Below are positions 11,601 to 18,921 of a DNA stretch of 37,281 nucleotides, piece by piece. How positions within the stretch are numbered: position 1 is the stretch's first letter; every line of letters starts with the position of its first letter. The translations under genes and the position numbers were made by a program. The DNA is from Bacteroidota bacterium (GTDB taxonomy: Bacteria; Bacteroidota; Ignavibacteria; Tepidaquicellales; Tepidaquicellaceae): NCBI GenBank assembly GCA_021286895.1, contig JAJTBN010000005.1:1-37281 (forward strand), written 5' to 3'. The notes under the pieces are model-generated. The model was not told the origin of the DNA, made no database searches, and saw only the letters and a program-made list of their open reading frames with translations.

Positions 11601-11780
11601 ATGTTCAGCAAATATTTTGAATCGGTTGAGTGGTACGGCATTTTCGCAATCGCGACGATGATACTTTTCGTCATCTCGTTTATCGTAATGCTTATATGGG
11701 CGTTCAGGATAGACAAGAAGAAGTTAGAAGAATACAACAATCTTCCTTTGGAAAATAATAAAAATTTTCAAGATGAATAA
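11601..11780 (+). CDS. ccoQ: CcoQ/FixQ-like small membrane protein
   Basis: A 59-residue frame begins with an ATG directly after the ccoNO stop codon and overlaps ccoP by 8 nt. It has one hydrophobic helix (about residues 13-34, GIFAIATMILFVISFIVMLI). A basic cytoplasmic patch (FRIDKKK) follows, then an acidic tail. Size, topology and position between ccoNO and ccoP fit CcoQ, the small subunit that stabilises cbb3 oxidases. Such proteins have little sequence conservation, so the call rests mostly on context. Confidence 0.8.
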   Translation: MFSKYFESVEWYGIFAIATMILFVISFIVMLIWAFRIDKKKLEEYNNLPLENNKNFQDE

Positions 11781-12591
11781 AAAAGTTTTAATCGGATTGA
11801 CCATAACGGCGGTTACCGCTGTAACGCAGGCAAAGGTCTTCGCGCAGACCGCTGTGCAGGAAACGTCGACGGATACTTATGTTTATCTGATACTCGGGGC
11901 GCTGCTGTTTACTCTGGCGGTTCTTTTCGCTTCAATCATGATTTTTGAGTCGGGAGAGAGAAGGGTGAAAAAGACGGCGGCGGCAGTAGCGGTTTCGAAC
12001 GAGGCGCTGCTTATTACCGAGCATGAATACGACGGTATTCAGGAACTCGACAATCCCGCGCCGGCGTGGTTTCAGTTCCTTTTCTACATAACAATCGCGT
12101 TCGCGATTGCCTATATGATTATATACCACGTAACGGGCAAGCCCAATTTATCCAATGACGAATATGTACAGGAAATGACGGCCGCGCAGATGCAGAAAGA
12201 TGAACTCATCCGCTCGGGAGCGCTAATAAACGAGAACAACGTTGCAGTTCTTACCGAACAAGCCGACCTCGATAAAGGCAAAGAGATATTTACAGCGAAC
12301 TGCGTAAACTGCCACGCGGCGGACGGAGGCGGAAGCGTCGGGCCGAACCTTACCGACCAGTACTGGATTCACGGCGGCGGAATAAAGAATGTCTTCACGA
12401 CGATAAAGTACGGAGTTCCGGCGAAAGGAATGATAACCTGGCAGAACCAGTTGAACCCGAAGCAGATACAGCAGGTCGCCAGTTATGTGCTGACTTTGCA
12501 AGGAACGAAGCCTGCAGCGCCGAAAGCGCCCGAAGGCAACATCTGGGCGGATTCTACAACGGCCGCGCCGAAAGATACACTGAAAAAATAA
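11773..12591 (+). CDS. ccoP: cbb3-type cytochrome c oxidase subunit III (CcoP), mono-heme
   Basis: CcoP brings electrons to the CcoNO core. The 272-residue protein has an N-terminal hydrophobic segment, a second one (about 35-57), then the CcoP signature YDGIQELDNPAPAWFQFLFY (86-105) running into a transmembrane helix. A single cytochrome c domain follows, with CVNCH (177-181) and a probable distal Met220 (AKGMITW). Proteobacterial CcoP usually has two hemes; this one has one. The C-terminus is an Ala/Pro/Lys-rich tail. The gene overlaps ccoQ by 8 nt. Downstream of its stop, after only 14 nt, an inserted GxxExxY unit separates it from ccoG. Confidence 0.95.
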   Translation: MNKKVLIGLTITAVTAVTQAKVFAQTAVQETSTDTYVYLILGALLFTLAVLFASIMIFESGERRVKKTAAAVAVSNEALLITEHEYDGIQELDNPAPAWFQFLFYITIAFAIAYMIIYHVTGKPNLSNDEYVQEMTAAQMQKDELIRSGALINENNVAVLTEQADLDKGKEIFTANCVNCHAADGGGSVGPNLTDQYWIHGGGIKNVFTTIKYGVPAKGMITWQNQLNPKQIQQVASYVLTLQGTKPAAPKAPEGNIWADSTTAAPKDTLKK

Positions 12592-12605: not shown

Positions 12606-12641
12606 TTTAGCCGCTAATTATCGCGAATTAAAGCAAATTAG
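12606..12641. repeat. Left terminal repeat with 10-bp period
   Basis: After TTTA the sequence reads as three successive 10-mers from 12610: GCCGCTAATT, ATCGCGAATT, AAAGCAAATT. The first 24 bp pair with the right repeat (23 of 24). The 10-mers resemble those of the palindromes at 14521, 14650 and 37191 (GCCACRGATT ATCACRGATT). Confidence 0.75.
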
Positions 12642-12668
12642 TTTTTAGAAAATAGATAATATTTTAAA

Positions 12669-13079
12669 ATGATTACAACGGATGTGAACATTTTAAATGA
12701 TAACGACCTGCTTTTCAAAGAAGAGAGTTTCAATATTATCGGGATATGTTTTGAGGTTCATAATATTTTAGGAAAAGGATTGCTTGAATCTGTTTATAAG
12801 GATGCGATGGAGTATGAATTCAGAAAACGAAATGTCCCCTTTGAAAGAGAAAAATTGTTTAAGATAAAATATAAAGATATTTATCTTAATCATTTCTTTT
12901 ATGCAGACTTCGTAGTCTATGATAGTATTATTCTCGAAATTAAGGCGGTAGCTTCCATTATTGACGAACATATAAAACAAACATTAAACTACTTATCTGT
13001 TACAGGTTTAAAATTAGGAATTATTATCAACTTCGGAGATAATTCCGTGAGATTTAAACGTATAGCAAGAACCAAATAA
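12669..13079 (+). CDS. GxxExxY-family protein
   Basis: The 136-residue protein carries the family signature GLLESVY (37-43), preceded by the usual GICFEVHNILGKG. A nuclease-like pattern follows: ADFVV with Asp80, then LEIKAV with Glu90 and Lys92. This D-x9-E-x-K spacing resembles the core of PD-(D/E)XK nucleases. The C-terminal LNYLSVTGLKLGIIINFG is also typical of the family. The biochemical role of GxxExxY proteins is not established to my knowledge. The gene is AT-rich compared with ccoP and ccoG, has no Shine-Dalgarno, and is flanked by inverted repeats inside the cco operon, which suggests recent arrival. It may be co-transcribed with the oxidase genes. Confidence 0.9.
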   Translation: MITTDVNILNDNDLLFKEESFNIIGICFEVHNILGKGLLESVYKDAMEYEFRKRNVPFEREKLFKIKYKDIYLNHFFYADFVVYDSIILEIKAVASIIDEHIKQTLNYLSVTGLKLGIIINFGDNSVRFKRIARTK

Positions 13080-13096
13080 ATATTTATATTAGAAAA

Positions 13097-13120
13097 AATT
13101 AGCGATAATTAGCGGCTAAA
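13097..13120. repeat. Right terminal repeat (inverted copy)
   Basis: The inverse complement of this 24-mer differs from the left repeat at one position. Read inward it also has the 10-bp period (GCCGCTAATT ATCGCTAATT). It ends 13 nt before the ccoG ATG. Confidence 0.75.
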
Positions 13121-13133
13121 TGCCGGTGTATGT

Positions 13134-14507
13134 ATGGAAAATGAATCATTCAGGGACCACCTGTCAACCGTAACGCAGGAAGGCAAGCGCGTCTGGGTCT
13201 ATCCAAAAAAACAAAAAGGAAAGTTTTATACCGCGAGAACAATCGTCAGCTTTTTTCTTCTGGCTTTCCTGTTCGTTACACCATGGATAAAAATCGACGG
13301 ACATCCGTTCTTTTTATTCAATATCTTCGACCGTAAATTCATTCTCTTCGGGTTCGCGTTCGGACCTCAGGACTTCTACATCTTCGCGCTCGGATTCGTG
13401 ACCATGGTCGTGTTCGTTGTTCTCTTTACAGCGGTGTACGGAAGGATTTTCTGCGGATGGATTTGTCCGCAGACGGTGTTTATGGAAATGGTGTTCAGAA
13501 AAATCGAGTATCTTATAGAAGGCGACGCGAGCAAACAGAGAGCGCTCGACGCGGAGCCGATGAACGGGAAAAAGTTCTTCAAGAAGTCTCTAAAGCATGT
13601 TATCTTTTACGCGATTGCCTTTGTAATAGGCAATACGTTGATGGCGTACCTTGTCGGCATCGATAAAACACTGGATATTATCGGTCATCCGCCCGCGGAG
13701 CATCTCGCGGGATTCATTGCAGTGATGGTTTTTTCGGGAGTGTTTTATTTCGTGTTTTCGAAATTCCGCGAGCAGGCATGCACTATCGTCTGTCCATACG
13801 GCAGGCTTCAGGGTGTTCTACTTGACCCGAATTCAATAGTCGTCGCGTACGATTACGTAAGAGGCGAGCCGAGAGGAAAACTGAATGAAACAAAAGGCGA
13901 CTGCATAGACTGCCACCTTTGCGTTGCGGTCTGTCCGACCGGCATCGATATACGCAACGGTACGCAATTGGAATGCGTCAACTGCACATCGTGCATTGAC
14001 GCGTGCGATTCAATTATGGTGAAGGTCAAAAAACCGAAAGGGCTTATCCGCTACGCTTCGATGAAAGGAATTAAAGACAAAGTGAAGTTCGGGTTCACGC
14101 CGAGAATAATTCTCTATACATCGCTGCTGGTCATACTTCTCTCGATTCTGACAGGACTGCTCATGTCGAGAAGCGACGTTAAGGCGAATATACTCAGGTC
14201 GCCGGGCAAGATTTATTCCGAAATGCCGGACGACAGAATAAGCAATCTTTATCACGTCGTGCTGGTTAATAATACTTTCAATGACATGCCGGTAGAGGTA
14301 AAGACAAACACACCGGACGCGCAGATACTGCTAATCGGAAAAGATGTGGTGATACCTTCGCTCAGCGTGCATGAGGCGGAGTTTATGGTAGTGATGGATA
14401 AGAATAAGATTAACACTACTGTCGTGCAGTTGAACATACAGGTGTTTGCTGCCGGAAAACTGTTCTATGAAACAAAGACGACCTTTATAGGTCCGCAGAA
14501 AAAATAA
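13134..14507 (+). CDS. ccoG: Cytochrome c oxidase accessory protein CcoG (polyferredoxin)
   Basis: CcoG is a membrane polyferredoxin of the NapH/RdxA group. In studied bacteria it is linked to copper delivery for cbb3 oxidase assembly. Hydrophobic segments lie at about 36-52, 83-101, 153-172, 190-208 and 325-344. Two [4Fe-4S] sets are present, Cys257/260/263/267 (CIDCHLCVAVCP) and Cys281/284/287/291 (CVNCTSCIDAC). The membrane motifs FCGWICPQT (106-114) and CTIVCPYGR (216-224) are conserved in the family. A C-terminal Ig-like periplasmic domain runs from about 360. The ATG at 13134 has no ribosome site, and the inserted unit ends 13 nt upstream, so its translation signals may have changed. 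Confidence 0.95.
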   Translation: MENESFRDHLSTVTQEGKRVWVYPKKQKGKFYTARTIVSFFLLAFLFVTPWIKIDGHPFFLFNIFDRKFILFGFAFGPQDFYIFALGFVTMVVFVVLFTAVYGRIFCGWICPQTVFMEMVFRKIEYLIEGDASKQRALDAEPMNGKKFFKKSLKHVIFYAIAFVIGNTLMAYLVGIDKTLDIIGHPPAEHLAGFIAVMVFSGVFYFVFSKFREQACTIVCPYGRLQGVLLDPNSIVVAYDYVRGEPRGKLNETKGDCIDCHLCVAVCPTGIDIRNGTQLECVNCTSCIDACDSIMVKVKKPKGLIRYASMKGIKDKVKFGFTPRIILYTSLLVILLSILTGLLMSRSDVKANILRSPGKIYSEMPDDRISNLYHVVLVNNTFNDMPVEVKTNTPDAQILLIGKDVVIPSLSVHEAEFMVVMDKNKINTTVVQLNIQVFAAGKLFYETKTTFIGPQKK

Positions 14508-15178: not shown

Positions 15179-15595
15179 TCACTCCGTTATTTCGATGCTG
15201 TGCGTCAGTTCGATTGCCTGCCTGTAAACTGCCGCTACTCCGCAGTATTTTTCCTGCGAAAGTTTCACCGCGTGCTCGACCTTATCATAGGGAATGTTCG
15301 TTCCTTTGAAAATATATCTGAGATGTATCTTGAAATATTTCTTCGGATGTTCTTCCGTCAGTTCGCCTTCCGCCGTAACTTTGAAATCGTCGTACTCAAT
15401 CTTCATCTTGCCGAGCATCGAGACAACGTCCATACCCGTGCATCCGACGAGAGACGCCAGCATCAAAGGTTTGGGCGGCGGTCCTTCGCCGTTTCCCCCG
15501 ACTTCCTTGTGCGCGTCGACGCGCACGTTATATCCCAGTACGTCTATATCAAACGCCATTCCCGACTTGTGTTCGGCAGTTACAGTGTGCTTCAT
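15137..15595. repeat. 459-bp direct repeat, left copy (ccoH tail + OsmC gene)
   Basis: The copy runs from GGCAGCGAATACTATC in ccoH to the OsmC start codon. It matches 18463-18921 without gaps; I count 14 substitutions, about 97% identity. Positions 15301-15553 are identical in both copies, and the differences cluster at the two ends. Confidence 0.95.
15179..15595 (-). CDS. OsmC-family protein, copy 1
   Basis: The 138-residue protein starts MKHTVTAEHKSGMAFDIDV. It has the OsmC-family core: PPPKPLMLASLVGCTGMDVV (about 40-59), with the conserved Cys in LVGCTGMD, and EKYCGVAAVYRQA near the C-terminus with the second Cys. Two-Cys OsmC/YhfA-type proteins use this pair for thiol peroxidase chemistry or related roles; activity here is not proven. 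A longer in-frame start exists 48 codons upstream, but the second copy (18505) begins at the same Met and the extra stretch looks non-coding. Compared with copy 2, five residues differ, for example Thr/Lys in KGTNIPYD. The 5' flanks of the two copies are unrelated, so they have different promoters. Confidence 0.9.
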   Translation of the reverse strand: MKHTVTAEHKSGMAFDIDVLGYNVRVDAHKEVGGNGEGPPPKPLMLASLVGCTGMDVVSMLGKMKIEYDDFKVTAEGELTEEHPKKYFKIHLRYIFKGTNIPYDKVEHAVKLSQEKYCGVAAVYRQAIELTHSIEITE

Positions 15596-16410
15596 TAAAT
15601 CAAATTTTACTAAAATATAAATAAGACAGTATTCAAATAAAGCGCAGGAAGAGATATCAGGAGTTGCAAAATAAAAATATTTGCCTATGAAAAGAAAGCT
15701 TAATTCATATCTAAAGGAGTAATGCAGAAATAAACACAATCTATTAAAAGCGCATATTAAACAATAAAATCAGAAAAACTTTAATATTTAATCCGAAATA
15801 ATCGTTAATCGGCAACTCATTTAAAAAAAAGATTTACCCGATAATGACAAGATTATTCGCGAATATAGTAATTTACTGAAATATGAAAACGAGTATTCGT
15901 CATTTATTAAGTTATAAAAAAATAATTCCAGGTTATTATTAAAATATATAATTATCTTGTATCGTTTATAAAATATACTTAGATTATAAAAGTTGTTTAA
16001 GTCAAAGCAGATTCCCCCGAATCAAAAGACGGCATTGAAACCGGTGACAACAAATAAAGAACATCTGCAAAAACGAGAACGAGAAATAGGCGTCTGCAAT
16101 AATTATTTATATCAATGAATCAATCAATCAATCACATCTTTTTGATAGCGAAAATTCTATTAAGAATAATGTCTCGCAGGGTAATAAACGAATGTACAAA
16201 AAAAGCATTTTAAAATTAGTGGTTTCTTTATAAATCGTAAAATATTTATGATGAGAGAATTAGATATTACAGCATATACATTATGCTTAAACAAAGAATA
16301 GAAATAATGGTTTATTTTAGCATTCACACATCTGTTTCTAAGAAATTAGTTTATATACAGTAGAATAAAATACAGATTATGAAGAAGTAATAGTAGCGAC
16401 CATAAAGGAG
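15596..16410. other. AT-rich non-coding stretch
   Basis: No credible gene was found in these 815 bp. The sequence is much richer in A+T than the cco operon. A small AATC microsatellite (four units) lies at 16118-16133. It ends at a decayed gene fragment (16411) and may be the remnant of older, degraded coding sequence. Confidence 0.6.
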
Positions 16411-18462: not shown

Positions 18463-18921
18463 GGCAGCGAATACTATCACGAAGCGTCGTTTCTCGTGAA
18501 ATAATCACTTCGTTATTTCGATGATGTGCGTCAGTTCGATTGCCTGCTTATACACCGCCGCTACTCCGCAGTATTTTTCCTGCGAAAGTTTTACCGCATG
18601 CTCGACCTTATCATAAGGAATGTTCTTTCCTTTGAAAATATATCTGAGATGTATCTTGAAATATTTCTTCGGATGTTCTTCCGTCAGTTCGCCTTCCGCC
18701 GTAACTTTGAAATCGTCGTACTCAATCTTCATCTTGCCGAGCATCGAGACAACGTCCATACCCGTGCATCCGACGAGAGACGCCAGCATCAAAGGTTTGG
18801 GCGGCGGTCCTTCGCCGTTTCCCCCGACTTCCTTGTGCGCGTCGACGCGCACGTTATATCCCAGTACGTCTATATCAAATGCCATTTCCGACTTGTGTTC
18901 GGCTGTTACAGTGTGTTTCAT
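18463..18921. repeat. 459-bp direct repeat, right copy
   Basis: This is the second copy of 15137-15595. It carries the last 13 codons and stop of ccoH as a dead fragment (18463-18504) plus a complete OsmC-type gene. Homology stops exactly at the OsmC start codon on one side and inside ccoH on the other. Confidence 0.95.
18505..18921 (-). CDS. OsmC-family protein, copy 2
   Basis: The 138-residue product differs from copy 1 at five positions: SGM to SEM near the start, KGTNI to KGKNI, VYRQ to VYKQ, and HSIEITE to HIIEITK (two changes). Both Cys of the OsmC pair (LVGCTGMD and EKYCGVAA) are kept, so both copies look functional. It is preceded, in transcription order, by hicB and hicA on the same strand, with 38 bp between hicA and its start codon. 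It may therefore be read from the toxin-antitoxin promoter, unlike copy 1. Confidence 0.9.
   Translation of the reverse strand: MKHTVTAEHKSEMAFDIDVLGYNVRVDAHKEVGGNGEGPPPKPLMLASLVGCTGMDVVSMLGKMKIEYDDFKVTAEGELTEEHPKKYFKIHLRYIFKGKNIPYDKVEHAVKLSQEKYCGVAAVYKQAIELTHIIEITK

Follow-up and report, generated by a model that had tools for sequence, protein, structure and literature searches.

The 515-bp segment between ccoP and ccoG in the window (the whole 37,281-nucleotide stretch analysed, positions 1 to 37,281 of contig JAJTBN010000005.1, assembly GCA_021286895.1, from a Bacteroidota bacterium) is probably one copy of a very widespread, minimal, self-contained unit, in which a GxxExxY nuclease would bind and cut its own iterons and host repair would finish the process. 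On the combined analysis, the unit is best read as resembling REPIN/RAYT but relying on an unrelated nuclease.

The original prediction, a 515-bp segment with 24-bp inverted ends and a single GxxExxY gene, proved exact (Table 1). The two 24-nt arms are complementary at 23 of 24 positions (96%) and are separated by 467 nt. Their arm score, which measures the strongest inverted match that the sequence upstream of a gene makes with the sequence downstream, was 21.5, far above the maximum of 12.0 obtained in 100 shuffles. Both arms have TTTAGC outermost, followed by inward-facing tandem iterons with a period of 10 and an AT spacer (CGCTAATT-AT-CGCGAATT on the left, CGCTAATT-AT-CGCTAATT on the right). 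The 136-aa GxxExxY reading frame is the only sizeable ORF between them. The spacing claimed for the segment was borne out, from the ccoP stop at 12591 and to the ccoG start at 13134, as was its AT-richness: G+C content was 0.28 in the unit, 0.51 in ccoP and 0.46 in ccoG. Elsewhere in the window, two nearly identical OsmC-like genes lie 3 kb apart on the minus strand (15179-15739 and 18505-18921), and the product of a gene between them has a C-terminal sorting-like tail.

Table 1. Positions of the GxxExxY unit, its parts and the adjoining host genes in the window.
Feature	Position	Strand	Size or distance	Basis
GxxExxY unit including both arms	12606-13120		515 bp	
Left terminal inverted array, TTTAGC + inward iterons	12606..12629	+		Arm comparison; other copies built alike
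Left-arm iteron CGCTAATT	12612-12619	+		
Left-arm iteron CGCGAATT	12622-12629	+		
Degenerate third iteron AGCAAATT, left side	12632-12639	+		
GxxExxY gene, PD-(D/E)XK nuclease family	12669..13079	+	136 aa	ORF list, profile search, alignment, model
Right terminal inverted array, outer end TTTAGC	13097..13120	-		
Right-arm iterons, both CGCTAATT	13107-13114 and 13097-13104	-		
ccoP, upstream host gene outside unit	11773..12591	+	14 nt away	
ccoG, downstream host gene outside unit	13134..14507	+	13 nt away	

The window protein scored 136.5 bits against TIGR04256 (cut-off 35) and 125.1 bits against PF13366 PDDEXK_3 (cut-off 22), and PDDEXK_3/GxxExxY was its only match in Pfam and NCBIfam. Its assignment to the GxxExxY family rests on a score above the curated cut-off, the G-x-x-E-x-x-Y motif (GLLESVY, residues 37-43) and the D plus E-x-K core. 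In an alignment of 82 family sequences, G35, G37, E40, Y43, D80, E90, K92 and N121 were invariant. The predicted structure (pLDDT 92.7, pTM 0.84) had the element order H-H-E-E-E-H-E-E, and its alpha-beta core with D...ExK places the protein in the PD-(D/E)XK superfamily. The best solved match in Foldseek was Cas4 SSO0001 (E 5e-4, TM 0.56 on the query); further matches were a lambda-type exonuclease, the Argonaute-associated Cas4-like ACE1 and, weakly, a Holliday-junction resolvase. A PDB sequence search returned T7 endonuclease I as its sole match, which was not significant (E 2). The fold is thus predicted to be a Cas4/lambda-exonuclease-like PD-(D/E)XK fold with D80/E90/K92. Pfam, residue invariance and the confident model agree on the Asp80/Glu90/Lys92 core that had been proposed from the sequence. 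Neither Pfam and NCBIfam profiles nor fold matches revealed a recognised transposase (DDE, HUH, or tyrosine or serine recombinase). dN/dS was 0.03-0.24 for close GxxExxY pairs where it could be calculated. These ratios indicate that the protein is functional and maintained, with the gene under purifying selection.

Inverted flanks were surveyed around the GxxExxY genes of 59 related genomes and of a broad set of 80 loci in named genomes of diverse bacteria, with an arm score of at least 15 regarded as strong. Strong flanks were found for 111 of 174 genes, or 109 of 169 (64%) after removal of duplicates. The corresponding figures were 2 of 297 (0.7%) for genes neighbouring them in these loci and 2.9% for mispaired flanks. 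The prediction that such flanks would recur in the family therefore held, with about a third of the genes lacking clear arms. Armed loci occurred in Bacteroidota, Chloroflexota, Planctomycetota, Verrucomicrobiota, Cloacimonadota, Pseudomonadota, Desulfobacterota, Acidobacteriota and Cyanobacteriota; the phylum of each broad-set locus was assigned from the title of its sequence record. The median unit span from outer end to outer end was 515 bp. Arms consisted of 2-4 iterons with the core CRCNNA(G/T) (variants CACAGAG, CGCAAAG, CACTAAG, CACGAAT, CGCAGAT and others), facing inward in 95 of 99 units and outward in 4. The iterons were spaced 8-10 bp, about one helical turn, a spacing almost absent from shuffled arms. 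At the sequence level, these data demonstrate that the inverted-array architecture around GxxExxY genes is general and has no one common sequence.

Many GxxExxY copies were conserved between species along with their flanks. No two sites of one genome were found to carry near-identical copies, apart from a tandem duplication in G014. At this locus (L114, contig C8), near-identical copies are arranged palindrome-gene-palindrome-gene-palindrome and adjoin a TIGR02436 gene. In G009 (L100), local duplication affects the sequence on either side of the GxxExxY gene and takes in the end of its reading frame. In Sphingomonas, one copy separates fabD from fabG. Target-site duplications of 3-9 bp showed no excess over shuffled pairing in 74 units. 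Co-directionality with both neighbours (47 of 77 copies, compared with 56% of control triples) was not significant.

Genes of TIGR02436 (four-helix-bundle, 23S intervening-sequence protein family) in the same relatives (loci L377-L406, 29 scored) had like flanks: 25 of 29 scored at least 15, compared with 8% of mispaired flanks, with iterons of 7-8 bp (AGTATTG, TTAGTAG, AGAATCA and so on). The organisation evidently extends beyond a single protein family, which makes it more rather than less interesting.

TIR similarity was correlated with protein identity (Mantel r 0.48, n=109; maximum 0.13 in 999 permutations), also in the 46 units of the broad set alone (r 0.46; permutation maximum 0.13). 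The nearest protein relative shared the iteron class in 84 of 94 cases (42 expected), and the protein tree required 7 changes of iteron class, compared with 17.6 in shuffles (minimum 15). The window's own genome carries units with CGCTAATT, CACAGAG and CACTAAG iterons. Judged from these comparisons, iteron sequence matches the GxxExxY protein lineage. Residues 76-78, 107 and 126-129 co-vary with iteron type and are candidate iteron contacts.

Arrays also occur without the gene. In the window's genome, solo arrays of several types are scattered in intergenic regions. At five loci (L002, L014, L019, L020 and L033), intergenic clusters mix CACAGAG, CACGAATT, CACGGATT and CGCGAATT solo arrays, as if some intergenic spots collect them. 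A general array pattern was counted in 395 genomes of the phylum, with the unit arms themselves included in the count. Genomes with the gene (n=183) averaged 8.4 arrays (median 3), about ten times the 0.9 (median 0) of the 212 that lack it (p 2e-22). This excess was repeated inside two families, and array number was correlated with GxxExxY copy number (Spearman 0.57, 395 genomes). Genomes with many repeats and no gene also occur, for example G159 with 26. The gene is thus flanked by inverted copies of a genome-scattered repeat, as in REP/RAYT systems. In Geobacter metallireducens, a 2009 study read paired repeat arrays as sites of global regulators (IHF/HU) (PMC2700814). Its class 1 paired tandem repeats have been seen at a constant distance from IS elements, and its class 2 consists of three tandem TCTCCGTS(Y) in opposite-strand pairs at variable distance (PMC2700814). 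The class 2 pairs look like the solo form of a GxxExxY-type array; they were published as repeats only, assigned to IHF/HU and not connected there with GxxExxY (PMC2700814).

At the ccoP-ccoG junction, a GxxExxY gene of the same subfamily was present in G000, G001, G002 and G009, so this site has been occupied for a longer time. G003, of the same genus, had only a 28-bp palindrome there, and more distant relatives had no GxxExxY unit or similar at this junction. G000 and G002 shared 64% identity in GxxExxY and 90% in ccoG, and the GxxExxY protein of L146, from another family, was 67% identical to that of G002. On these values, the junction is a clear case neither of simple vertical inheritance nor of a fresh, precise insertion. 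In G001 (L093, contig C5), about 13 tandem units of ~52 bp (AATCAGTGCTAATCAGTGGC...) follow the GxxExxY gene at ccoP-ccoG, and two solo inverted arrays lie upstream of it.

The precise empty site expected in relatives was not found in clean form at ccoP-ccoG, but was very clear at two junctions in Bacteroides, radA-FAD and sufC-sufD, which carry a unit in some species and lack one in others. Empty radA-FAD gaps measured 4-122 nt. On the tree of the radA-FAD flank genes, filled and empty states changed 13 times, nearly as for random labels (mean 15.1), and an empty (L283) and a filled (L268) allele had flanks 97.9% identical. This gap hosts three GxxExxY lineages, each with its own iteron type. 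L271 and L274, with CACAGAG and CACAGATT iterons respectively, had flanks 91% and proteins 59% identical; the pattern was the same for L275 and L276 (86% and 57%). The left arm of L276 is a hybrid, its outermost iteron of CACAGAG type and its inner ones CACGGATT and CACAGATT, which looks like the trace of a replacement of one unit by another within the arm. In L293 and L302 an arm was retained and the gene was gone. Empty and filled radA-FAD alleles differ over the entire spacer, a difference that allele exchange by homologous recombination via the flanking genes would also give; such exchange may carry some of the turnover.

The sufC-sufD junction was empty with a gap of 0 in L361, L365 and L367 and filled in other alleles. 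In L359 an internal deletion left arm sequence on both sides, and in L353, L355 and L358 the GxxExxY arms surround another repeat. In these three alleles and in L356, L360, L362, L364 and L372, other palindromic repeats, of GTCATCCTGAGCG type and GAAGAATGAAGAAT iteron type, lie within GxxExxY arms or elsewhere in the gap. Further Bacteroides copies lie at presumed mutA-mutB and murG-murC junctions, read from flanking peptides. In terms of sequence comparison, these junctions demonstrate that gene and cognate arms form one evolutionary unit, which appears, disappears and is swapped as a whole at fixed positions between genes, and that gene-less arms and solo arrays are left behind in genomes.

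Different lineages repeatedly filling the same sites would also be expected of a defence or homing-type nuclease that cuts incoming or allelic DNA, with the arms protecting or marking self, iteron diversity reflecting an arms race, and spread by homing rather than transposition. Homing and restriction enzymes are both represented among PD-(D/E)XK nucleases. The structural matches to Cas4 and then to ACE1, together with the lack of a target-site duplication, agree with such a role. However, the phage search returned no phage-record homologue of GxxExxY, the defence-model libraries gave marginal matches only (a candidate model at E 0.0026 across 44 residues), and the single ORF between the arms leaves the unit with no partner methyltransferase for modification. 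We therefore regard a defence or homing role as unlikely. It is likewise improbable that the iterons are operator- or nucleoid-type sites of GxxExxY or another protein, with the gene autoregulated and junction exchange amounting to ordinary allelic recombination. The closeness of the arms to the gene, the conserved genes of the flanking operons and the IHF/HU interpretation of the opposite-strand three-repeat pairs in G. metallireducens (PMC2700814) fit such sites. Against them, the nuclease residues are invariant across 82 sequences, close relatives lack gene and arms altogether, other lineages take their place, and co-directionality with neighbours is not in excess.

We also give a low probability to a passive unit, in which GxxExxY would serve as cargo or in a host function, its arms being ends or insertion sites of repeats moved in trans by a RAYT/IS200-type or DDE transposase. 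The many-type solo arrays crowding the intergenic regions of the window's genome, the other repeat families inside units or at the same sites (sufC-sufD), and the constant spacing between class 1 repeats and IS elements in G. metallireducens (PMC2700814) could all be accommodated in this way. However, an enzyme acting in trans would predict neither that iterons follow GxxExxY phylogeny, as they do even within one genomic site, nor that repeat number follows GxxExxY presence. Chance inverted matches in AT-rich DNA, conceivable from the composition of unit and flanks, are refuted by the far lower scores of shuffles, neighbour genes and mispaired flanks, by the Mantel controls and by the equal frequency of mixed-composition arms such as ACCACAGAG.

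In the preferred reading, that of a unit acted on by its own nuclease, the GxxExxY protein would bind its own iterons, probably as a dimer per array or bridging two ends, and would cut or nick at or near the arms. Host recombination would then repair the break, and the unit would be copied into, or swapped at, sites in a manner like homing or cassette exchange. Solo arrays would be non-autonomous derivatives, as REPINs depend on RAYT. The original prediction held that the protein may act on the repeats and move or maintain its own unit. Co-variation of iterons with protein and joint replacement at one locus indirectly support action on the repeats; the lack of both target-site duplications and recent dispersed copies does not, and argues against ordinary cut-and-paste transposition. 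We infer cleavage and movement by the GxxExxY protein from these sequence patterns, and the nuclease likely drives the movement of the unit.

The closest parallel is REP/REPIN-RAYT (TnpA-REP). Both have a small nuclease gene between inverted short repeats that are also scattered without the gene, and in both the type of repeat goes with the type of protein. The RAYT protein is an HUH/Y1 tyrosine nuclease, whereas the window unit encodes no such enzyme, its gene matching PDDEXK_3/GxxExxY only, with a PD-(D/E)XK fold. REP ends are one bulged palindrome, in contrast to tandem iteron arrays with a period of 8-10 bp, and GxxExxY differs further in having several lineages per genome and site-wise replacement. 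The GxxExxY units resemble IS elements and MITEs in their compactness, terminal inverted repeats and gene-less derivatives, but have no known transposase fold, target-site duplication or burst of near-identical copies. Homing endonuclease genes include those of PD-(D/E)XK type, such as I-SspI. Like them, GxxExxY is a free-standing nuclease gene found repeatedly at the same conserved site and patchy among close relatives, the site being uninterrupted in element-free relatives (sufC-sufD, radA-FAD); unlike them, it is intergenic (in no intron or intein), with its own repeat arms and with repeats scattered elsewhere. Cas4/lambda-exonuclease-type nucleases (SSO0001, ACE1) share the fold and the D-ExK core, but have ~200-270 aa rather than 136, and no CRISPR or Argonaute gene adjoins the unit in the window. 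In having a small nuclease gene, inverted short repeats and scattered derivatives, the GxxExxY unit works like REPIN/RAYT (for example PMC2817692, PMC3116915). The searched literature, which omits many subscription journals and preprints, held no earlier account of GxxExxY genes with repeats; GxxExxY is mentioned in passing by two papers and PF13366 by one, TIGR04256 by none, and an earlier description may exist elsewhere.

The GxxExxY units look like minimal mobile units of a class not previously described, and may be the source of very common unexplained genomic repeats. A wider proposal, to which we give somewhat less than even confidence, is that they constitute a novel type of autonomous mobile element in at least nine bacterial phyla, in which a Cas4-like PD-(D/E)XK nuclease would mobilise itself and dispersed solo arrays via lineage-specific iteron arrays, by cut and repair (homing or cassette exchange) with no target-site duplication. 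Intergenic repeats of the ubiquitous CACAGAG, CGCAAAG and CACGAATT types would be its products, and TIGR02436 units with 7-8-bp iterons a parallel class. TIGR04256 is a common uncharacterised family, present in 183 of 395 sampled genomes of the phylum, and matching short inverted arrays are widespread and unexplained in bacterial genomes. Through the tie between repeat and protein, a probable producer can be named for the repeats and a probable substrate for the protein. If the nuclease drives exchange, the engine of this element class would be neither DDE, HUH nor site-specific recombinase. The natural lineages offer many protein/iteron pairs, and with them material on a compact sequence-specific nuclease.
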